From assembly GCF_012932425.1 (NCBI RefSeq), contig NZ_JAAIII010000006.1:1-64000 (forward strand): a stretch of DNA of 64,000 nt, written 5' to 3'. This document shows, piece by piece, positions 15,345 through 59,398 of this stretch. This DNA is from Bifidobacterium oedipodis (GTDB lineage: Bacteria > Actinomycetota > Actinomycetes > Actinomycetales > Bifidobacteriaceae). A program made the translations under genes and the position numbers. Positions within the stretch are counted from its first letter, which is position 1. Each line of letters opens with the position of its first letter. The notes beneath the pieces were generated by a model. The model searched no databases. It was not told the origin of the DNA and worked only from the letters and a program-made list of their open reading frames with translations.

Positions 15345-15420
15345 ACGAAGCTCATGGCATATTGTTTGCGGCGAGCTTCGTAAGAATAATTTGTATTGGT
15401 ACCAAAATGGTACCAATACA
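15345..15420. repeat. Two consecutive inverted repeats between DUF3800 and tRNA-Gly
   Basis: ACGAAGCTC (15345-15353) pairs with GAGCTTCGT (15373-15381), and TGTATTGGTACCA (15392-15404) pairs perfectly with TGGTACCAATACA (15408-15420) over a 3-base loop. The second may end transcription of the DUF3800 gene, although no T-run follows. The rest of 15150-15474 is AT-rich without a gene. Confidence 0.5.
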
Positions 15421-15474
15421 CAAATTATCAAGCGATAAAAGCCTTGAAAACGTTGAAATTCCAATGATTTGAAG

Positions 15475-15548
15475 TGGAGCGGATGACGGGAGTCGAACCC
15501 GCCTTTAAAGCTTGGGAAGCTTTCGTTCTACCGATGAACTACATCCGC
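15475..15548 (-). tRNA. tRNA-Gly (anticodon CCC)
   Basis: The minus strand folds into a full cloverleaf: acceptor GCGGATG/CATCCGC, D-arm GTTC/GAAC, anticodon stem AAAGC/GCTTT with loop TTCCCAA (anticodon CCC), T-arm GCGGG-TTCGACT-CCCGT, discriminator T, and an encoded CCA. Its 3' end faces the accessory block to the left. Confidence 0.93.
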
Positions 15549-15752
15549 ATGCGGCCCTTGTGGGGCACAAGTGGTTAGTCTAGCATGCCTTTGCCAGCGG
15601 CAACGCCTGTTGCCCATTTTTATCCGTTATTCCGCCGGCACGTTGCCGCCATGTCACCACTGTTCCCCAAGACAACGCCGGGGATGGGGGCTATAACACA
15701 CCGTCGGCACCTCGAGCCGGCACCCGCAGCCAGCACCCAGTAGCCGACACCA

Positions 15753-49860: not shown

Positions 49861-49905
49861 AGCGTTTGGTTTTAGAGTAATTGAGCTTGCTCTAGTTTGA
49901 TTTGA

Positions 49906-50122
49906 GGCACTTCTTGTTGAATACCCACAAGAAGTGCCTCAAATAGTCTGTTATATGCCTGTTGCCGGCACTTTTGTTGGGGATTCCCTCAAAAAGTGCC
50001 GGCAACAGCATTATTACGCCCTGTTCGCGGCACTTCTTGCGGATTTTCCACGATAAGTGCCGCGAGTAGCCCATTCTGTGTCTGTTAACGGCACGTTTCG
50101 GGGAAAATCCACAAGAAGTGCC
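49906..50122. repeat. Palindromic repeat array C (four 33-34 nt units, 61-62 bp period)
   Basis: Units at 49906-49938, 49967-50000, 50029-50061 and 50090-50122 share GGCACTTSTTG...AAGTGCC with arrays A and B. Spacers are again exactly 28 bases but differ more. Several stems are longer here: the first pairs 17 bp (49901-49917 with 49927-49943). It occupies the gap between crgA and the bacteriocin accessory gene, which contains no gene. Confidence 0.9.
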
Positions 50123-50174: not shown

Positions 50175-51539
50175 TCACGGATGCACTAATTTGTCCCAGT
50201 AATAGGCCAAATAGGGCTTCTTCCCCGTGATAATCACGGTTTCGCCCTGAAATCCATACCGTAGATACTGCGACTGGCCAGGTTTACTGACTACGCTCGC
50301 ACGCACTTCATAATAATTACCTTGCTCCGTACGAGTAGGAGACAAGGCGATGGAGCGAACCGTTGCCTCAAGAATTAGCGGCTTCGCTGAATTCTGATAA
50401 TTACTGAGACGCACCCCCTGCCCCTTTCGGATTTCCGTGATTTCGGATACCGGCACCATCAGCATCACGTCCAGCTGTGTTCCATCAGTCAGTTTTGGGT
50501 ACACTTCAGCCACGGTCGTTCCCGCAGGTATCTGCTTAAGTCCCTTCACTTCCTCATTGACGTGCAGCACACCATTCGCGGTCGCTTCCACCCACAGATT
50601 CTCTGTGTCACCTTGGGCAAGGGCAATGCTGGTTTTCAATTCCAATTGTTTCGACTGCACGGTAGCCAGTTCTTTATCGGCATTCAGTTGATATTGGGCT
50701 TGCAAGGCTTCTATTTGGCTGTCGAGGCTGCTGGATTGAGCGGTTATCGAGCCGGCACTTGCTCGCTGTGTGCGCAATGACGCGATTGACTCATTCAGTT
50801 CCCGCACGGACGAATCAATATCGGCGAGGGTTTGGTTTTGCAGGGTTGTTTTCTGTTCCGCATCTGTAGTTGCATTCGCTTGGGCCTGGTATGTAGCATA
50901 CGATGCGATAAAAGCATTGTCGTCGGGCAGCACTCCGTCAGAGGCCACTGCTTGTCGCAATTGTGCATAGTCATCAAGCAATTGCTGCGCGTGAACTATC
51001 TGCTCATCCACGGATGCCTGAACTGTGGCGATAGCGGCATTCTGATCAGCAGTGGATTGATACTGCGTAGCCGCATCACGACGCAGTGCGTCCACCCGCG
51101 CATGAAAATCGTCCAGCATGGCGCTGTAACCAAATTCATCAGTCTCGATGGAAGCTCCGGTGTCGTCGTTCAATCCTGCGATCAGACGTTCCAAGGCGCG
51201 ATGCTGTTGGTCGGCCACTTCTAACTGTTGACGTAGTGCTTCCAACTGAGTGTCATCTTCCGCACTGTCGTAGGCGAGCAGCAAATCGCCTTTATGCACT
51301 TCACGGTTTTCTTCCACATGATTAACCGTTATCGGTTTGTTGCTTGTGGATTGGATACGTGTCACAGTTCGCGACGGCACGATTTCACCAACGGTTTTCA
51401 CGGTAATCTCACGCGTACCGATCAATGAAAACGCCAATAATCCCACCACAATGGCAAGCACCGGCATGATTACCATTGTTGAAAAATTCCTGTATCGCCG
51501 GCTGTAGTATTCCGAACTTTCAAACAGTCGTGAGTCCAT
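50175..51539 (-). CDS. Bacteriocin secretion accessory protein, HlyD/ComB-like
   Basis: The 454-residue product has one N-terminal helix (VIMPVLAIVVGLLAFSLIGT), a lipoyl half (ITVNHVEENREVHKGDLLLA), a long coiled coil (about 90-320) and the returning lipoyl half (LWVEATANGVLHVNEEVKGL) followed by a beta-barrel domain. Size and layout match ComB/LcnD-type accessory proteins that pair with C39 peptidase ABC exporters. It begins 18 bases after the exporter gene, completing the secretion apparatus of the bacteriocin locus. It is the last gene of the minus-strand unit. Confidence 0.9.
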   Translation of the reverse strand: MDSRLFESSEYYSRRYRNFSTMVIMPVLAIVVGLLAFSLIGTREITVKTVGEIVPSRTVTRIQSTSNKPITVNHVEENREVHKGDLLLAYDSAEDDTQLEALRQQLEVADQQHRALERLIAGLNDDTGASIETDEFGYSAMLDDFHARVDALRRDAATQYQSTADQNAAIATVQASVDEQIVHAQQLLDDYAQLRQAVASDGVLPDDNAFIASYATYQAQANATTDAEQKTTLQNQTLADIDSSVRELNESIASLRTQRASAGSITAQSSSLDSQIEALQAQYQLNADKELATVQSKQLELKTSIALAQGDTENLWVEATANGVLHVNEEVKGLKQIPAGTTVAEVYPKLTDGTQLDVMLMVPVSEITEIRKGQGVRLSNYQNSAKPLILEATVRSIALSPTRTEQGNYYEVRASVVSKPGQSQYLRYGFQGETVIITGKKPYLAYYWDKLVHP

Positions 51540-51557
51540 AACAATCCCGTTTCGTCA

Positions 51558-53711
51558 TCAATCGGTGAACAGGTGATAATATTCGCCGCGCTTCGCCATC
51601 AGCTGCTCGTGGGTGCCTTGTTCGCAGATACGCCCGTGGTTCATCACCATAATTGATCCGCAGCGCGAGGCAACAGTAAGACGATGTGCAATAAATATGA
51701 TGGTCTTGTCATGCAAGGCCAATAGGTTATCAATGATTATCTTTTCCGTAGCCACGTCCAGACTGCTGGTGGCTTCATCCAGCACCATCACGGGCGCATC
51801 CGCAAGCAGGGCACGGGCAAGAGCGATCCGTTGTTTTTGCCCGCCGGAAATGGCAGCCGCGTCACTGGTAAGTTCAGTGGAATAATTCATCGGCATCGAT
51901 TCGATATCCGCTCGAATTCCAGCGATTTCCACGGCCCGTATGATGTCTTCCTGCGTGGTTCCAGGCTTGGCACCAAGCGTCAGGTTGTCCATGATCGATC
52001 CGGAGAAAATGTAGGGTTCCTGCGGCAAGTAATTGATATGACGACGTAGAACGTTTCGTTCCACGTTGTTCACGTTCGCATTGCCAACAGTCACGCTGCC
52101 TTCGGTAACGTCATAGAAATCAACTAACAGCTTGGCTAATGTGGTCTTGCCCGAACCACTCATACCGACGATTGCCAGCTTGTCACCTGGCTGAATGGTC
52201 AGGTTGATATCCGTAAGGGTGTTGCGCCCATATCCGAATTTATATGACACATGATCAAGTTTGATAGGTCCGGCAAGCTGCGCGGAGTCGGTGACGGTTT
52301 GGCTGTTGTTGTGTTCCGATGCAACCAGAAACACCTCGTTGAGGCGGTTATTGGCGACTCGCGCGGATTGCAATTTGGTCTGCAAATTGATGATGTTCAA
52401 CAATGGCTCAGTGAAATAATTAAGCAGCGTATTGTAGGTAACCAGTTGGCCGACGCTGATTGCATTATCCATTACCAATCGCGCACCCACCCACAGCACC
52501 ACCACATTGAGCAGCAGCCGCGCAGCACTTTTCAAGACGGTTTGCAGCGTCTCAGCCTTGGCATAGGAAAAAGACTTGTCAAGGTATTTCACGAACTCAC
52601 GATCGATTTTGCTGTAACGCTCCTGCTCACTGGACAAAGATTTGACAGTTTCCACGCCATTGATGTCTTCGATGATGGATGAGCTGACGATGGAGTTTGC
52701 CTGCATCGTATCGTTGTTCATACGCTCGAATGGCTTCACGAACACGAAGATGATCAGTGCATACACCGGCAATGCCACCAGCGTCAGCAGGAACAATTGC
52801 ACGTTCTGCAGGCCGAGCACGGCTCCGACGATTACCACTGTGCCGACGTCAAGGAACACGGAGATGATGGTGCTGGCAAGAGCGTCAATAATCGAGTTCG
52901 CATCGGTAAAACGCGAGATGATTTCTCCCGTGCGGCGAGTGGAGAAAAAGCTCATGGGCAGTTCGAAGATGTGACGGATATATGAAAGAATCACATCAAT
53001 GCTGAGACGCTGCCCAAGCACGGTGAGCAAATATTGCCGCGCATATGACAGCACCTGTTGGATAGCATAAGCAGCGATAAGACCGACGGAGACGATGCCC
53101 AACGTTGATTTCATCTGATCTGGAATATACGTGTCAATCAGCGCTTGCAGAAAGTATGAACCCACCACGTTGATGAGGGTGACCAGTAACGCGGCAACAA
53201 TGATGTTGGCGATGAGCCGTTTGTTTTTCAACAGTAGCGGCACGAAGCCAAGCAGACCACTGTTTGTCTCCTTGTGCGGCCGGTATTGTGGTGCCGGCCC
53301 CATGAACAGGGCCACGCCCGACCACTCTTTTTCAAAATCGCTTTTGGCGACCTTGCGCACGCCCGTGTGCGGGTCGGGATCGGCGATAACCAGATTGTCT
53401 TTTACGGACTTGTACACCACCACATAGTGCAGAAGCTTGCCTTGTTTAAGGATATGAGCGATGAACGGATACGGCACATCATCCATGCCGAATAACGACA
53501 TGTCTGCTTTGACGGCTTTGGTCTCGAAACCGATGGCTTTGGCAGCTTCAACCAAGCCAAGCGCAGTAGTGCCCTCCATATTGGTTTTCGCCAATTCCCG
53601 CAGATGCGCCAGAGAATAGTCAGAACCATAATGCTTGGCGATGGTAGCCAGCGCAGCCACACCGCAATCACGCATGTCCACCTGCGGCACATAAGCGTAT
53701 CGCTTGAACAT
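51558..53711 (-). CDS. Peptide cleavage/export ABC transporter with C39 peptidase domain
   Basis: I start it at the ATG at 53711 (GGGGG four bases upstream), giving 717 residues, the usual ComA/LcnC size. The in-frame extension to 53813 runs into a hairpin and is doubtful. The N-terminal C39 peptidase has YVPQVDMRDCGVAALATIAK (Gln10, Cys16), LLHYVVVY (His) and IADPDPHTG (Asp). A six-helix ABC core and an ATPase domain follow, with GMSGSGKTTLAKLL, ISGGQKQRIALARAL and APVMVLDEATSSLD. It should cut the three double-glycine precursors encoded upstream after Gly-Gly and export them. Confidence 0.94.
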   Translation of the reverse strand: MFKRYAYVPQVDMRDCGVAALATIAKHYGSDYSLAHLRELAKTNMEGTTALGLVEAAKAIGFETKAVKADMSLFGMDDVPYPFIAHILKQGKLLHYVVVYKSVKDNLVIADPDPHTGVRKVAKSDFEKEWSGVALFMGPAPQYRPHKETNSGLLGFVPLLLKNKRLIANIIVAALLVTLINVVGSYFLQALIDTYIPDQMKSTLGIVSVGLIAAYAIQQVLSYARQYLLTVLGQRLSIDVILSYIRHIFELPMSFFSTRRTGEIISRFTDANSIIDALASTIISVFLDVGTVVIVGAVLGLQNVQLFLLTLVALPVYALIIFVFVKPFERMNNDTMQANSIVSSSIIEDINGVETVKSLSSEQERYSKIDREFVKYLDKSFSYAKAETLQTVLKSAARLLLNVVVLWVGARLVMDNAISVGQLVTYNTLLNYFTEPLLNIINLQTKLQSARVANNRLNEVFLVASEHNNSQTVTDSAQLAGPIKLDHVSYKFGYGRNTLTDINLTIQPGDKLAIVGMSGSGKTTLAKLLVDFYDVTEGSVTVGNANVNNVERNVLRRHINYLPQEPYIFSGSIMDNLTLGAKPGTTQEDIIRAVEIAGIRADIESMPMNYSTELTSDAAAISGGQKQRIALARALLADAPVMVLDEATSSLDVATEKIIIDNLLALHDKTIIFIAHRLTVASRCGSIMVMNHGRICEQGTHEQLMAKRGEYYHLFTD

Positions 53712-53800
53712 GAAACCCCCATCATCCGTAAGCCGCCGTATGAATGATTCCATCCAATCAGGCGCACGGTCATTCCACGACTCATATGCTTCTCTTAATA

Positions 53801-53840
53801 AACGAATGTCCACAATGATTACTCATTGTGGACATTCGTT
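53801..53840. promoter_or_regulatory. 18-bp perfect inverted repeat between the immunity candidate and exporter genes
   Basis: AACGAATGTCCACAATGA (53801-53818) and its exact complement (53823-53840) flank a TTAC loop, just after the upstream stop codon at 53851. It could be an attenuating hairpin setting the bacteriocin:exporter mRNA ratio, or a regulator site. No long U-run follows. Confidence 0.6.
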
Positions 53841-53850
53841 TACTGCATCG

Positions 53851-54060
53851 CTATTCTTTGCTTGCCTTATTGATTGTTTTAGACGGATTATGAATCGCCG
53901 TCAAATATGTCAAAAAGGTCGCAGGTAATCCTAGCAATAATACTGTTTTACTCGACGGTGGAAATACAAAGCCGCAGCAAGCCAACGCTAACATAACTGC
54001 TTGCGCAATCATCGCGCTGATAAGAATCACCTTGGCTACCATACGTCCAGTAATGACCAC
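53851..54060 (-). CDS. Small two-helix membrane protein, candidate bacteriocin immunity protein
   Basis: A GTG at 54060 (four bases after the preceding stop) gives 69 residues; an ATG at 54042 gives 63. Two hydrophobic helices (VILISAMIAQAVMLALACCG and TVLLLGLPATFLTYLTAI) are joined by a short Pro/Ser loop, and the C-terminus is Lys-rich (NPSKTINKASKE). Small basic two-helix proteins directly downstream of class II bacteriocin genes are usually immunity proteins. I do not recognise the family, so the role rests on position and shape. Confidence 0.55.
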   Translation of the reverse strand: MVITGRMVAKVILISAMIAQAVMLALACCGFVFPPSSKTVLLLGLPATFLTYLTAIHNPSKTINKASKE

Positions 54061-54064
54061 ATGC

Positions 54065-54217
54065 TTATTTTCCGAAAAAAGCTTGACCAATTGGCACTCC
54101 TACAGCAAAGCTAGCGGCAAAAATACCGACACCCAAAGCTACCATGCTACCTGTAATAACAAATCCACCGTCTACAGTCTCGAGCTCGGCAACTGTCAAT
54201 TCAGTTTGATTTTCCAT
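54065..54217 (-). CDS. Double-glycine bacteriocin precursor, peptide 2 (50 residues)
   Basis: The ATG at 54217 has GGAGG six bases upstream. The leader MENQTELTVAELETVDGG has the class II pattern (L at -12/-4 type hydrophobics, ending Gly-Gly). The predicted mature peptide has 32 residues, starts FVITGSMVALG, is hydrophobic, contains glycine-zipper spacing (GVGIF, AVGVPIGQA) and ends FFGK. It lies 16 bases after peptide 1. Shared N-terminus (VIT) and glycine spacing suggest the two act together as a class IIb pair. Confidence 0.8.
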   Translation of the reverse strand: MENQTELTVAELETVDGGFVITGSMVALGVGIFAASFAVGVPIGQAFFGK

Positions 54218-54233
54218 TTCTATCCTCCATAAA

Positions 54234-54392
54234 TCACAAATGAGCGCCAACAAAAATACCAGCCGCAAGGCCAACAACGGCAATTCCCAAACCGATAGCG
54301 GCACAAGTCGTCGCCGTGATGACCACACCGCCTTCGACCTGCATTAACGCATCTTCTTGCAGTGAGTCAAACTGCGCCATCGCATTACTCAT
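54234..54392 (-). CDS. Double-glycine bacteriocin precursor, peptide 1 (52 residues)
   Basis: The ATG at 54392 has AAAGGA six bases before it. The 22-residue leader ends EDALMQVEGG and the predicted mature 30-mer starts VVITATTCAAIG and ends FVGAHL. It contains a single Cys and repeated glycine spacing (GLGIAVVG, GLAAGIFVG) including GxxxG-type motifs typical of two-peptide bacteriocins that insert as helix pairs in membranes. It is the first structural gene after the regulatory block. Too short for usual gene callers, so probably often missed. Confidence 0.8.
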   Translation of the reverse strand: MSNAMAQFDSLQEDALMQVEGGVVITATTCAAIGLGIAVVGLAAGIFVGAHL

Positions 54393-54600
54393 ATGCAATC
54401 CTTTCATTCGTTTTCTTGTTATAGGCCGAATATGACGACCTATGTTCAGTTCAACACATCTTCGATGCCATCATCCATTCCCCGAAAGAAACGATAAACT
54501 CTCGTTTACAAAACTCTCTTCCATGCAGCAACCGTCCACAACGCGATAGCCTTAATCAAGGATTAATATAAAACTCTTCGATATATTAATGCGCCATAAG
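54393..54600 (-). promoter_or_regulatory. Promoter region of the bacteriocin operon with AGAGTTT direct repeats
   Basis: On the minus strand the octamer GAGAGTTT occurs at 54503-54496 and 54518-54511 (15 bases apart), with a near copy AAGAGTTT at 54578-54571, 60 bases further. This phasing upstream of peptide 1 suggests binding sites for the locus response regulator. AT-rich -10-like sequences are abundant and I could not choose one. Confidence 0.4.
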
Positions 54601-54621
54601 CGAATGTTTCTACATTAACAA

Positions 54622-54652
54622 AATGGCTACGACAGTTATCGTCGTAGCCATT
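54622..54652 (-). terminator. Terminator after the pheromone gene
   Basis: AATGGCTACGAC (54622-54633) pairs perfectly with GTCGTAGCCATT (54641-54652); on the minus strand TTTTGTTAATG follows. It separates the regulatory transcript from the bacteriocin operon. Confidence 0.75.
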
Positions 54653-54727
54653 ATCATAAGTTTCATATAATTACGAATTATATTTCGTAAGAGCATCAAA
54701 TCTTAATATTTCTCACAGTAAAAACTG

Positions 54728-54844
54728 TCATCTTTTATTAAATATCAGGTTCAAAAGAAAACTGGCAAGATCACCACCGTTGATCTCACCCAGCTCATCA
54801 GGTTCGCACGCCTGAAATGACAAAACTTCATCATACTTGTCCAT
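54728..54844 (-). CDS. Double-glycine precursor of a 14-residue peptide, probable inducing pheromone
   Basis: The ATG at 54844 has AAAGGG seven bases upstream. The 38-residue product has a 24-residue leader ending DELGEINGG and a predicted mature peptide DLASFLLNLIFNKR. This amphipathic, cationic-ended 14-mer is too short to be a pore-former of class IIb and has the size of induction factors such as PlnA, Blp or ComC pheromones. It is encoded directly after the histidine kinase gene on the same strand and ends at a terminator. Signal function is inferred from leader type, size and place. Confidence 0.72.
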   Translation of the reverse strand: MDKYDEVLSFQACEPDELGEINGGDLASFLLNLIFNKR

Positions 54845-54982
54845 GATAATGCCCTTTCTTTCATCACGGATTACAACTTCAGTTTCATCACACACCTAGA
54901 GACATCTGCTGCGTTAGCAAATTATTCAAAATGTCAACATACGTCTACACCACTGTAGTTTTTGTACGCATATGTTCACACG

Positions 54983-56158
54983 TCAAACAGGAATCCAGCA
55001 GTTCAGCATCCATGTTCCATCCTCAAAACCGGTCTGCAAATGGCCTCCCAGAGATTGTGCCGCCTGCTGATACAACGACAAGCCACGCCCTGAGCGAACC
55101 CCTTCCATATGACGCGCTCCATTCGCACATGTATTCGTTTGTATAACACGAACACCGTCAACAGACAATTTGACCACTACAGAGTATTCATCTACGCCAC
55201 CACTGCAATGACGAAGAATATTCGTATATAATTCCTGTAATAAATCCGCTATGAATTCTTCGCGCTCGTCCGAAAGCAACACGTCCCCCATGACAGCTGA
55301 AGTTCCTTGTATTCCTTGACGACTCAGATCTTTATCTTTCTGGTCGCATATCTCACGTAGAGATTTCACCCCCTGCATATGATGAACACTCAAGTCCTCT
55401 GAATGGCCATTCATATCTAAATTCAACAAATCAATCACTTCATGCACATGATTAAGAGCCTGACGCGCATGCTCATCGATACCAATCCGTACGGATTCCG
55501 CAGACGCACTATCCGACAGCTGCCCCGTCAACAGAAGAATGGCGGATAAATCATTGGTCACCGAATCATGGATACGCCTTGCCAACGCATTATTCTGCTC
55601 TTGCTGCGCTAACCTCATACGAGCTTTTTCCAACGCAAAACGAGCGCTCATTTCTTCTTTCTCAATCATCCAACGTTGCATTGCACGCCCCATCAACCAC
55701 GGCAAAAGCGTGATGCCCCCATACAGTATGACCGCCAGCACCTCCCCATTCCTCAGAAATGCCCCCACACATAATGCCACTGCTGACAAAGACACAAATA
55801 CGATGGAATACCATCTGCTGCGCTCAACATATCCAAATATGAAACTTGCGCATATCGTCATTGCCAATGTCACCAACGGAGAAACCCAGTAGGATGGAGC
55901 ATTGTCGATAAAAACGCTCAGCCCTATTGCCGCAATCGCACCAATACGACTATACGGAATCATTAACATCAGAACGCACTCAGCACAGATCGTCAGAATA
56001 ATTCCGGTCCAACCATATGCATACGTTTTATCGACAATCGACAACGTAATGCAGCAAACCATGCCTATAAGCACGATTGGCACCACGCCGCCTCTTTTGA
56101 CAATCAGAGCCACCCACTTGCTTATTTGCGCTGTCAGTTGTTTCAGTTTCACTGCCAT
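54983..56158 (-). CDS. Histidine kinase of the bacteriocin locus (NarL-type partner)
   Basis: The 391-residue product has six or so N-terminal helices (to about residue 160), a coiled coil, a HisKA_3 segment RRIHDSVTNDLSAILLLTGQ (phospho-His about residue 196) and an ATPase domain with ELYTNILRHC and GRGLSLYQQAAQSLGGHL. A polytopic sensor with short outer loops fits sensing of a small hydrophobic peptide. It overlaps the response regulator gene by ten bases and precedes the putative pheromone gene by 138 bases. Unlike blp/com systems, which use HPK10 kinases with LytTR regulators, this one is of the NarL class. Confidence 0.88.
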   Translation of the reverse strand: MAVKLKQLTAQISKWVALIVKRGGVVPIVLIGMVCCITLSIVDKTYAYGWTGIILTICAECVLMLMIPYSRIGAIAAIGLSVFIDNAPSYWVSPLVTLAMTICASFIFGYVERSRWYSIVFVSLSAVALCVGAFLRNGEVLAVILYGGITLLPWLMGRAMQRWMIEKEEMSARFALEKARMRLAQQEQNNALARRIHDSVTNDLSAILLLTGQLSDSASAESVRIGIDEHARQALNHVHEVIDLLNLDMNGHSEDLSVHHMQGVKSLREICDQKDKDLSRQGIQGTSAVMGDVLLSDEREEFIADLLQELYTNILRHCSGGVDEYSVVVKLSVDGVRVIQTNTCANGARHMEGVRSGRGLSLYQQAAQSLGGHLQTGFEDGTWMLNCWIPV

Positions 56159-56895
56159 GTACCCGTCACCCAGATGGCTATGGCTTGGCTCAAGGTGTTG
56201 GCATTGAGTTTTTTGACTGCACGATGTGACTGTGTGCGAATCGAGGATTCGGTAACGCCAAATTCCTCAGCAATCTGAGCATACTTTCTTCCCTGAGATA
56301 GTAGGTCCAGAATTCGAGCTTCCTGCGCGCTAAGCTTGGGCCGCGTGGAGGCAGGTTCGCTGATAATGCGCCTGTGCGCCTCTTCCGTAGTCTCAAACTG
56401 CACACCACTTACAGGGCTGAAGGTTCCTCCTCGACGAAGCCGACTAATCGCTAATGACATCATGGAACTATCGGATTTAGTGGCCAGTCCTTGGGCACCG
56501 GCAGCGGCAAGTTTTGCCGCGTAATAGGTCAGACTGAATGATGTGATGCCCAACACTGGCACTTTATCCGTATCCGAGCGAATCAGGCGGCAGACATCCA
56601 AGCCGCTTTCGCCGTCGTTCAACGACATATCAAGCATCAGAATATCCGGGGCCAGTTCGGGGTTGGTGCATTTGCGTGCCGCATCACCGCCGGATTGCGT
56701 GTACCACATCACTTGCACTCCAGGTACCCATCTGGGCACCGCCTGTGCCAACAGCTTCACCGTCAACGGGTCGTTATCCACGATGGCCAAACGCAATGGC
56801 TGAAAGCCATCAGCACCATTATCAAGACTATCCATATAGTGCAATCTACCGGCTGGATCATCTGCGTTTGCCCAATCAAGCAAATTTGTGGACAT
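56149..56895 (-). CDS. LuxR/NarL-family response regulator of the bacteriocin locus
   Basis: The 248-residue product has about 33 extra N-terminal residues, then a receiver domain (RLAIVDNDPLTVKLLAQAV, phospho-Asp in ILMLDMSLNDGESG, GLATKSDSS) and a LuxR HTH (LSAQEARILDLLSQGRKYAQ followed by VTESSIRTQSHRAVKKL). It is the first gene of the minus-strand regulatory unit. It probably activates the bacteriocin operon in response to the peptide sensed by its kinase. Confidence 0.9.
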   Translation of the reverse strand: MSTNLLDWANADDPAGRLHYMDSLDNGADGFQPLRLAIVDNDPLTVKLLAQAVPRWVPGVQVMWYTQSGGDAARKCTNPELAPDILMLDMSLNDGESGLDVCRLIRSDTDKVPVLGITSFSLTYYAAKLAAAGAQGLATKSDSSMMSLAISRLRRGGTFSPVSGVQFETTEEAHRRIISEPASTRPKLSAQEARILDLLSQGRKYAQIAEEFGVTESSIRTQSHRAVKKLNANTLSQAIAIWVTGTWQ

Positions 56896-57134
56896 ACGTT
56901 GTCATTTAGCCATCTCGCCTACATTCCACGCACCGATTCTCATATCCACAAGCAACAATCGTCCACACGCGCCAAATATCAGTGGACACCCGTTAACAAA
57001 AGCCGGCATACACGCGATGAAATCGCTTACCACGAGAGAACCTATATAAGCCATGCGAAACACAACCGCGTTTCGCAACAATATGGAATGTTGCTCTGCA
57101 ATTCCTCACGCCAGAAATATCGCCGGCATATAAT

Positions 57135-57189: not shown

Positions 57190-57209
57190 CCCACAGAGAA
57201 GGAAGATTG

Positions 57210-57779
57210 ATGACATCACGGCTTTTGCGCATACTGCGCTCGATGCTGCTTTGGACAGGCATAGGACTTTTGTGCCTTATCCCCAGCTATTCCAACGTGA
57301 ACACCAGCGACGTCGCCGCATTGTTGCGCCAACTGTCGCCGCTGTTCAGCTTCGCAGGTGCCTGTTGCGGCATTCAGCTGGCAACCCTCACCTTTCATAA
57401 TGACGCCGATACCCCCAAAATCCGGGCAATCGTCGCACCGTCGAATATTGCGCGCATAACGGCGTTGGTGTGCTGCGAGGTGGTGCTTATCGCCGCCATC
57501 GTCACCATCGTGCTCGCCGCCATCGGGGACTTCCCACGGCAGGGATTCACCGCAGACGCCCTTCCTGTGCTGCTGCTGAATATTCTGAGCAGTTGGCTGT
57601 ATGCCATCGCCCTGTTTATCGCGGGTGCCTATTGCCCCACTCGCCCATTGATTGTCATCGCCGCTCTGGCATGGCTTGTGGTGCGATACGGAAACCTATG
57701 GATCGAGGCAGCCTACCTGCTCCTTCTGATAGCAGCCGTCTTCTATTGCCGATATCAGCGGGCGCACGCTCGGCAGTAA
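57210..57779 (+). CDS. Polytopic membrane protein, function unknown
   Basis: The ATG at 57210 (AAGGAAG upstream; a TTG at 57207 is in frame) gives 189 residues with five or six hydrophobic segments, for example MLLWTGIGLLCLIPSY, ITALVCCEVVLIAAIVTIVL and AAYLLLLIAAVFYC. No motif points to a family. It stands between the bacteriocin regulator, which is divergent, and a DnaA-box cluster. A bacteriocin-related immunity or transport role is possible by position but not supported otherwise. Confidence 0.6.
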   Translation: MTSRLLRILRSMLLWTGIGLLCLIPSYSNVNTSDVAALLRQLSPLFSFAGACCGIQLATLTFHNDADTPKIRAIVAPSNIARITALVCCEVVLIAAIVTIVLAAIGDFPRQGFTADALPVLLLNILSSWLYAIALFIAGAYCPTRPLIVIAALAWLVVRYGNLWIEAAYLLLLIAAVFYCRYQRAHARQ

Positions 57780-57924: not shown

Positions 57925-58206
57925 TTGTGCACAGGTTATCCACGAGTTATCCACATGGTTTTCCACAGAATGTGGATGAATTACACACTTGTAGTTCTCC
58001 ACATAATGTGGATAACTCCGTGGATAAGTGGTGGACAACCTTGATTTCAGCGTGTAAAACCGGTGGATAAGTGGTGGATAACCAGTGGATAGTGGAAACG
58101 AGAATCCACACCACTACATGTAGTGGTGTGGATAACTTGAGTTATCCACATTCTTTCGTTGTGTACAACTTCAAGTTATCCACATAAGGCGAATGCCTGT
58201 GGATTG
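57925..58206. other. Dense cluster of DnaA boxes (possible replication origin or DnaA-titration site)
   Basis: In about 280 bases I count some 17-18 nonamers matching TTNTNCACA or its complement. Perfect TTATCCACA boxes occur at 57947, 58142 and 58176 on the plus strand and at 58007-58015 and 58127-58135 on the minus strand. One-mismatch boxes include 57925 (TTGTGCACA), 57936, 57959, 57995, 58019, 58062 and 58073. Boxes occur in both orientations around a 30-bp palindrome. There is no gene in the stretch and no dnaA or dnaN next to it. An AT-rich unwinding element is not obvious. Confidence 0.8.
58104..58133. repeat. 30-bp perfect palindrome within the DnaA-box cluster
   Basis: The sequence runs ATCCACACCACTACA then its exact complement TGTAGTGGTGTGGAT with no spacer. 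Its ends overlap DnaA-box half sites (TGTGGATAA at 58127). Confidence 0.9.
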
Positions 58207-59054: not shown

Positions 59055-59131
59055 GGTATCGGTTGTTGTAGGTCAGTCTCAAACTCAACCATTGAAGGCG
59101 AAACTGACACGTTCCTACGCCAAGAATGTAC

Positions 59132-59165
59132 ACGTTCGTATACAATATAGATTGTACACGAACGT
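59132..59165. promoter_or_regulatory. Operator-like 15-bp inverted repeat before the HipB-like gene
   Basis: ACGTTCGTATACAAT (59132-59146) and ATTGTACACGAACGT (59151-59165) are inverted copies with one mismatch around ATAG. Its outer edge is 20 bases before the HTH gene start, overlapping TATA-like -10 sequences. It lies in the divergent promoter with the rhomboid gene, so the repressor may control both. Confidence 0.65.
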
Positions 59166-59185
59166 AATCAAACAGACGAGGCAGT

Positions 59186-59398
59186 ATGAAAATTCTCACC
59201 ATGTACGATATGGGTCTCGCCATTCGCGATGCTCGCGATGAACTGGGATTGACGCAAGAGCAATTGGCATCCAAAGCCCATGTATCGCGCAGCTGGTTAG
59301 CGCAAGTGGAAACAGGAAAGGCTGCCTTCGACTTCCGCCGCGTACTCATGGTGATGGCAGCTCTCAACCAACACATCGAGGTACTCCCCAATGAATAA
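59186..59398 (+). CDS. XRE/HipB-like helix-turn-helix regulator
   Basis: The 70-residue product is a single HTH domain (LAIRDARDELGLTQEQLASK, then VSRSWLAQVETGKA) with a short beta tail AALNQHIEVLPNE like HipB, which forms a dimer through that strand. GAGGCAG precedes the ATG. No hipA-type kinase gene follows, so the antitoxin is an orphan or a stand-alone repressor. An inverted repeat just upstream is a likely autoregulatory site. Confidence 0.85.
   Translation: MKILTMYDMGLAIRDARDELGLTQEQLASKAHVSRSWLAQVETGKAAFDFRRVLMVMAALNQHIEVLPNE

Follow-up and report, generated by a model that had tools for sequence, protein, structure and literature searches.

A predicted peptide-regulated bacteriocin locus in Bifidobacterium oedipodis combining a Bacilli-like export module with NarL-type control

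Does Bifidobacterium oedipodis carry a complete bacteriocin system under the control of its own secreted peptide and, if so, from what kinds of parts is it built? The question is raised by eight minus-strand genes at positions 50175-56895 of contig NZ_JAAIII010000006.1 (assembly GCF_012932425.1), which lie within the 64,000-nucleotide stretch analysed here (positions 1 to 64,000, hereafter the window). The initial annotation, made from the DNA letters, had described a self-contained, peptide-regulated class II bacteriocin locus, and the gene content bears this out: each gene lies where it had been placed and every frame is open. As judged from its sequence, the locus is a complete, real, peptide-regulated class II bacteriocin system of a known kind, the variant features being the bifidobacterial host, the NarL-type regulation and a candidate operator. 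Our best reading, which we consider probable, is a quorum-sensing, class IIb-like locus whose Bacilli-like export module is driven by a bifidobacterial NarL-type two-component system.

In order of transcription the locus comprises a response regulator, a histidine kinase, a 38-residue precursor, a hairpin, peptides A and B, a 69-residue protein, an exporter and an accessory protein (Table 1). The regulator, peptide A (PF10439), peptide B (TIGR03949), the exporter and the accessory protein exceed curated family cut-offs, the kinase and the 38-residue precursor gave only matches below cut-off, and the 69-residue protein has no match in Pfam or NCBIfam. For the precursor, which lacks a Pfam match, the NCBIfam scores for BlpC (14.2 bits) and ComC (13.4 bits) are far below cut-off. 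No gene for a modification enzyme was seen among the eight.

Table 1. Positions in the window of the genes and candidate signals of the locus (aa, amino acids; nt, nucleotides).
Feature	Position	Strand	Basis
Bacteriocin secretion accessory protein, 454 aa	50175..51539	-	TIGR01000, 426.5 bits
C39 peptidase-ABC exporter, ComA type, 717 aa	51558..53711	-	TIGR01193, 1090.4 bits
Palindrome upstream of exporter, two 13/16 candidate dyads overlapping in symmetry	53796..53845	.	
69-aa membrane protein, GTG start assumed, likely immunity protein	53851..54060	-	One clear hydrophobic segment
Peptide B precursor, 50 aa, predicted mature 32 aa	54065..54217	-	TIGR03949, 23.1 bits, over cut-off
Peptide A precursor, 52 aa, predicted mature 30 aa	54234..54392	-	PF10439, 39.4 bits, over cut-off
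Terminator-like hairpin, 13 pairs, after pheromone gene	54622..54652	-	
38-aa double-glycine precursor, INGG motif, likely pheromone	54728..54844	-	Position equals that of the 40-aa FGG precursor of Bifidobacterium bohemicum
Predicted mature 14-mer DLASFLLNLIFNKR	54731-54772	-	Predicted cut after Gly-Gly
Candidate dyad 12/16, 86 nt before pheromone start	54931..54950	.	
Candidate dyad 12/16, 117 nt before pheromone start, as in Bifidobacterium bohemicum	54962..54981	.	
Membrane histidine kinase, 391 aa, likely pheromone receptor	54983..56158	-	Invariant His box, hydrophobic segments, catalytic-domain fold
NarL-type response regulator, 248 aa	56149..56895	-	Response_reg and GerE over cut-off
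Candidate dyad 12/16, overlapping annotated regulator start	56886..56905	.	
Candidate dyad 12/16, 84 nt before regulator start	56980..56999	.	

The exporter lies above the 523.85-bit cut-off of its model, aligns along its whole length with ComA of Streptococcus pneumoniae (1056 bits) and retains Cys17, His96 and Asp112 of that protein, which we take to be the catalytic residues. Its start is probably the ATG at 53711, as in its relatives, rather than the upstream GTG at 53813. The accessory protein likewise passes its cut-off (258.85 bits). Among the matches listed for the exporter (the best 120 of 3679), the best-named relatives after two bifidobacteria come from a Streptococcaceae genome, Listeria and Streptococcus, at 65-69%. 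In a tree built from 22 of these 120 matches and one outgroup, the rows labelled bifidobacterial and those labelled Bacilli need two changes each, one row labelled Bacilli (P0031) grouping with Bifidobacterium aemilianum. The outgroup is too distant to root this tree and hence the direction of transfer was not read from it. Relatives of the accessory protein in plasmids amount to 173 records, all below 60% identity, from ten listed genera and four more.

The cargo also fits double-glycine leaders coupled to a C39 exporter, as had been claimed. The calculated average masses are about 1664 Da for the predicted 14-mer, 2779 Da for mature A and 3160 Da for mature B. Peptide A passes the PF10439 cut-off of 27.1 bits and stays under that of TIGR03949 (16.6 against 21.5 bits); peptide B stays under the former (23.2 bits) and passes the latter. 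Together with their shared operon, these family models favour reading A and B as one two-peptide (class IIb) bacteriocin. The small membrane protein encoded next had been described as having two helices, whereas a Kyte-Doolittle scan gives one clear hydrophobic segment. The likeness between mature A and mature B is equalled by 0.7% of 2000 shuffles and that between mature B and the start of the 69-residue protein by 0.45% of 2000, and these likenesses above shuffled sequences hint that the genes arose by duplication.

The regulator carries a Response_reg domain (43.3 bits) and a GerE domain (33.2 bits), both above cut-off, and its domain list holds no LytTR match, in agreement with the initial claim of NarL-type rather than LytTR-type regulation. 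Its true start may lie downstream of the annotated one, for example at 56835. The kinase gene, whose start overlaps the end of the regulator gene, encodes five hydrophobic segments within its first 200 residues and a His box (IHDSVTxxLS) whose residues are invariant across eight aligned relatives. Its structure model has a pTM of 0.40, at which whole-chain matches are uninterpretable, and the catalytic domain alone, which was used for comparison, resembles DosS and DesK (TMt 0.73-0.76). A model of the kinase family matches 107 of 112 Bifidobacterium genomes (E up to 1e-3), and no kinase relatives were found in viral contigs. With a Bacilli-like exporter on one side and a kinase family found across Bifidobacterium on the other, the locus has the look of export and peptide genes of Bacilli type placed under bifidobacterial control.

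Ten stretches from nine other species that hold relatives of the kinase and regulator were compared by eye, from the ends of their open reading frames. Five of the pairs stand beside ABC-2-type transporter genes, three in the dnaA-dnaN region and two near genes of neither recognised kind. The dnaA-dnaN-region pairs (L055, L059 and L062, from three Bifidobacterium genomes) adjoin very large proteins. The family is abundant in some species, with 16 matches in the B. oedipodis genome and 20 in another (G109), and many such kinases could respond to novel peptide signals.

In the gallocin system (PMC8545106), a kinase is activated by a secreted peptide, and its regulator, once phosphorylated, turns on the bacteriocin genes. 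Our model for the 14-mer, kinase, regulator and peptides follows this analogy, and every functional step in it, namely cleavage, signalling, activation, killing, immunity and the pairing of A with B, is predicted; what the sequence itself shows are the genes and their order, the leaders, the family memberships and the dyads. The 38-residue precursor would be cleaved after Gly-Gly and the resulting 14-mer exported. The membrane kinase would sense the 14-mer and phosphorylate the regulator, which would bind 20-base-pair (bp) dyads of the type TTGTRGAC-N4-GTCYACAA and boost its own genes, the pheromone and the exporter; the peptide operon would also be raised by the regulator, directly or indirectly. 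Peptides A and B would leave through the same C39 transporter, which would also cut them, and would permeabilise related bacteria or form pores, probably acting together, while the 69-residue membrane protein would shield the producer.

Is the locus confined to B. oedipodis? The accessory-protein model TIGR01000 is exceeded in 3 of 112 Bifidobacterium species genomes (B. oedipodis, B. bohemicum DSM 22767 and B. aemilianum XV10), and three further genomes gave weak matches. In an even draw of 396 Actinomycetota genomes, from which B. bohemicum and B. aemilianum were evidently absent, only B. oedipodis passed the cut-off and 32 others matched weakly. PF10439 was found in one of the 112 genomes, that of B. 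oedipodis. The same gene order (regulator, kinase, precursor, peptides, exporter, accessory protein) is present in B. bohemicum. Peptide A found only itself, a weak negative given that just four candidates had words in common with it. The exporters of the two species are 76% identical, the accessory proteins 49% and the kinases 33%, and the regulators share 118 of 242 aligned residues, but the peptides are different: B. bohemicum has a 40-residue precursor with an FGG motif and several double-glycine peptides, along with three PF02517 (CPBP) membrane proteins. In B. aemilianum two double-glycine peptides lie beside the exporter gene (71%) and the accessory gene (43%). No kinase was seen there in the 15.6-kilobase (kb) stretch, which reaches the contig end; the genome holds one kinase relative (E 3.5e-18), its place not being listed. 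That the machinery is kept while the peptides differ looks as if peptide cassettes had been exchanged.

One of the two adjacent B. aemilianum peptides (L030:10282-10701) is weakly lactococcin G-beta-like (E 5e-5, 23.8 against 29.4 bits), and the two are perhaps another two-peptide bacteriocin. The bacteriocin genes of that species lie between a whole gene, presumably nitroreductase-like, and a second copy of its 3' end (L030:9533-10135 and 15420-15638), as if inserted with duplication.

The base composition and the setting of the B. oedipodis locus also bear on its origin. The guanine plus cytosine (GC) content is about 41% in 1-kb windows around the peptide and pheromone genes and 40-53% for the genes, against 59% in the flanks. 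The bordering genes, which we take to be a crgA-like and a rhomboid gene, are 8.4 kb apart in the window. Both occur on one contig within 15 kb in 16 of 23 same-genus relatives (not in the other 7), with gaps between match ends, calculated by hand, of 0.1-14 kb; it measures 0.7-0.9 kb in the three whose rhomboid gene is most similar (72-77%). We count the low GC content and the larger gap in favour of the preferred reading, as signs of insertion. The B. bohemicum locus does not share a contig with either the crgA-like or the rhomboid gene of that species, so the two loci occupy different genomic sites. Between the accessory and crgA-like genes of the window, at 49900-50110, several similar near-palindromic repeats (GGCACTT..TTGTGG-like) were seen by eye.

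What might the regulator bind? The half-site GTCCACAA was first noticed in the window and in promoter regions of B. bohemicum. As a plain 8-mer it occurs four times in the window, a count that 10 of 100 shuffles reach, and it was rejected as an operator in itself; the dyad TTGTRGAC-N4-GTCYACAA, scored over 16 positions, was therefore considered instead, its other arm and N4 spacer being taken from four B. bohemicum sites. The B. bohemicum regulator site and the genome-wide counts were obtained after the pattern was written. In B. bohemicum the dyad scores 15/16 in front of four genes (regulator, pheromone and two peptides) and 13/16 in front of the exporter gene. These sites end 117, 114, 113 and 79 nt before the pheromone, the two peptides and the exporter, respectively, and 94 nt before a likely regulator start, although alternative starts would shift all such distances. 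Allowing up to three mismatches, the B. bohemicum genome holds 19 sites: the four with one mismatch are all in the locus, the two with two mismatches are not, and one of the thirteen with three is the exporter site. In 160 kb from nine other species no site reaches 14/16 and two reach 13/16, each site being counted once.

Of the window's sites of at least 12/16, six belong to the locus and five to the rest of the 64 kb. Five of the six fall in four intergenic regions, which in 1000 dinucleotide shuffles held 0.08 sites on average and never more than 3, and the sixth overlaps the regulator start. The pheromone, regulator and exporter regions hold two such sites each, a number matched in none of 2000 dinucleotide shuffles for any of them. 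The seed half-site is present in the sites at 53796, 53826 and 56886 and absent from those at 54931, 54962 and 56980, and the window dyads are weaker than those of B. bohemicum. For the palindrome in front of the exporter, a role as terminator of the peptide operon is just as plausible. The predicted recognition helix (VTESSIRTxxHRAVKKL) is nearly identical in the two regulators. Taken together, the dyad is a well-supported candidate operator in B. bohemicum and, in a diverged form, a likely one in the window. A sigma-70 scan was uninformative (10 found against 9.7 expected).

Several results weigh against the preferred reading or parts of it. Three of the four near-perfect B. bohemicum sites had served to write the pattern, and a backwards control pattern gave more sites than the dyad both in the B. 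bohemicum genome (33 against 19) and, at up to three mismatches, in that of B. oedipodis (55 against 18). Of the 18 B. oedipodis sites, 16 lie outside the locus and two inside. In the window the best dyad before the peptide operon scores 11/16, short of the 12/16 threshold, and the exporter pair is formed by the opposite arms of a single palindrome, so that its sites are not independent. As the control outnumbers the dyad, what speaks for the operator narrows to two things, the sites in B. bohemicum that are near-perfect and the clustering of sites at the locus. For the kinase, HisKA_3 (17.4 bits, cut-off 24) and HATPase_c (13.5 bits, cut-off 26.4) both stay below cut-off. Finally, GxxxG-like helix motifs are typical of class IIb two-peptide bacteriocins, but two in mature A and one in mature B are numbers that 10% and 63% of shuffled peptides reach, and we rejected the motif as proof of class IIb membership.

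That chance-level result is one reason to ask whether A and B instead act independently, each as a one-peptide class II bacteriocin, or whether one is active and the other a diverged duplicate. The likeness of A and B beyond shuffled sequences would suit such an origin, and B. bohemicum has several dissimilar peptides with no obvious A/B pair. On the other hand, A and B are adjacent and share one putative immunity gene, and B (not A) passes the cut-off of the class IIb model TIGR03949 (lactobin A/cerein 7B family), which leaves independent action a serious but rather doubtful alternative to a two-peptide bacteriocin. A similar doubt attaches to the signal. The 14-mer could be a third effector, with A, B or another cue activating the kinase: in five of the ten stretches a kinase of the family adjoins ABC-2-type transporters and no peptide gene is visible, so the family need not sense double-glycine pheromones. 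We consider this unlikely, since the 14-mer is short with a basic end and since, here and in B. bohemicum alike, the precursor gene comes directly after that of the kinase and a dyad ends 117 nt before the precursor start.

The low GC content, the rarity in the genus (three of the 112 genomes) and the weaker window dyads would also be expected of a horizontally acquired locus that has fallen silent or is decaying and has lost its function. Against this, none of the eight frames is interrupted, the exporter triad is intact, and neither the exporter nor the accessory protein is truncated relative to its family model, such that we regard decay as very improbable.

The blp, pln and com systems of streptococci and lactobacilli resemble the locus in their ComA/ComB-type exporter and accessory protein, their double-glycine peptides and their order of regulator, peptide and export genes. 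They differ from the locus in employing LytTR regulators and HPK10-type kinases. COG2197 and COG4585, which occur in a published bifidobacterial cluster, we take to be a NarL/FixJ-type two-component pair. Work on B. longum subsp. infantis lists two bifidobacterial clusters as lantibiotics, one of them with a COG2197 regulator and a COG4585 kinase, and a pair of this type next to a bifidobacterial lantibiotic cluster is thus already published (PMC4573289). These clusters and that of pseudocin 196 (PMC11305057) share with the locus the bifidobacterial host and a two-component system, but they encode modified lanthipeptides. Bifidocin B of B. bifidum is, like A and B, an unmodified class II bifidobacterial bacteriocin (PMC11305057, PMC8399906); it is described as class IIa (PMC8399906) and presumed plasmid-associated (PMC11305057), and the passages mention no second peptide or pheromone control. 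In B. longum, class I clusters and propionicin SM1 are reported (PMC8399906), and known producers of antimicrobial peptides are said to be few among bifidobacteria (PMC11305057). A close parallel is gallocin of S. gallolyticus, controlled by GSP-BlpH/BlpR, with a class IIb two-peptide bacteriocin, a double-glycine inducer, a membrane kinase and regulator, an ABC exporter and a conserved promoter binding site; BlpR, however, has a LytTR DNA-binding domain, whereas the window regulator is NarL-type (GerE) and is accompanied by a kinase of another family in a bifidobacterial host (PMC8545106).

In the open-access literature, outside which most subscription papers lie, we found no description of such a bifidobacterial locus or of the candidate operator. 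The initial statement that no bifidobacterial example had been described agrees with this search, but the locus is not unique: its plan recurs in B. bohemicum and its export module in B. aemilianum. What is new here is the candidate operator TTGTRGAC-N4-GTCYACAA for such a locus. A bolder claim, which we hold to be evenly balanced, is that, among the Actinomycetota, this would be the first system for an unmodified two-peptide bacteriocin under pheromone control. In this view an export and peptide module of streptococcal type was rewired, via a 20-bp dyad regulon, onto a bifidobacterial two-component system of the NarL type, and peptide cassettes are swapped between Bifidobacterium species. If true, class II peptide quorum sensing can use a regulator family other than LytTR, and the locus would be a natural case of a signalling circuit rewired following gene transfer. 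It also yields named peptides that can be synthesised, a 14-mer predicted to switch production on, and a candidate operator.

Other features of the window lie beyond the regulator gene. Divergent to it, at 57207-57779, is a gene for a 190-residue protein with four hydrophobic segments and no Pfam match over cut-off, which may belong to the locus or simply adjoin it. Two further dyads at 59126 and 59152 were set aside because they stand just before an unrelated helix-turn-helix gene (70 residues, 59186-59398, plus strand); these GTnnAC-type dyads (59126-59171) are likely its own operator. At 57936-58184, twelve TTATCCACA-like (DnaA-box-like) sites with at most one mismatch fall within 250 bp, out of 31 in the window against a shuffle mean of 10.3. 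The cluster lies near the minimum of the cumulative GC skew (58.5-59.5 kb) and is perhaps a replication origin or DnaA-binding region.

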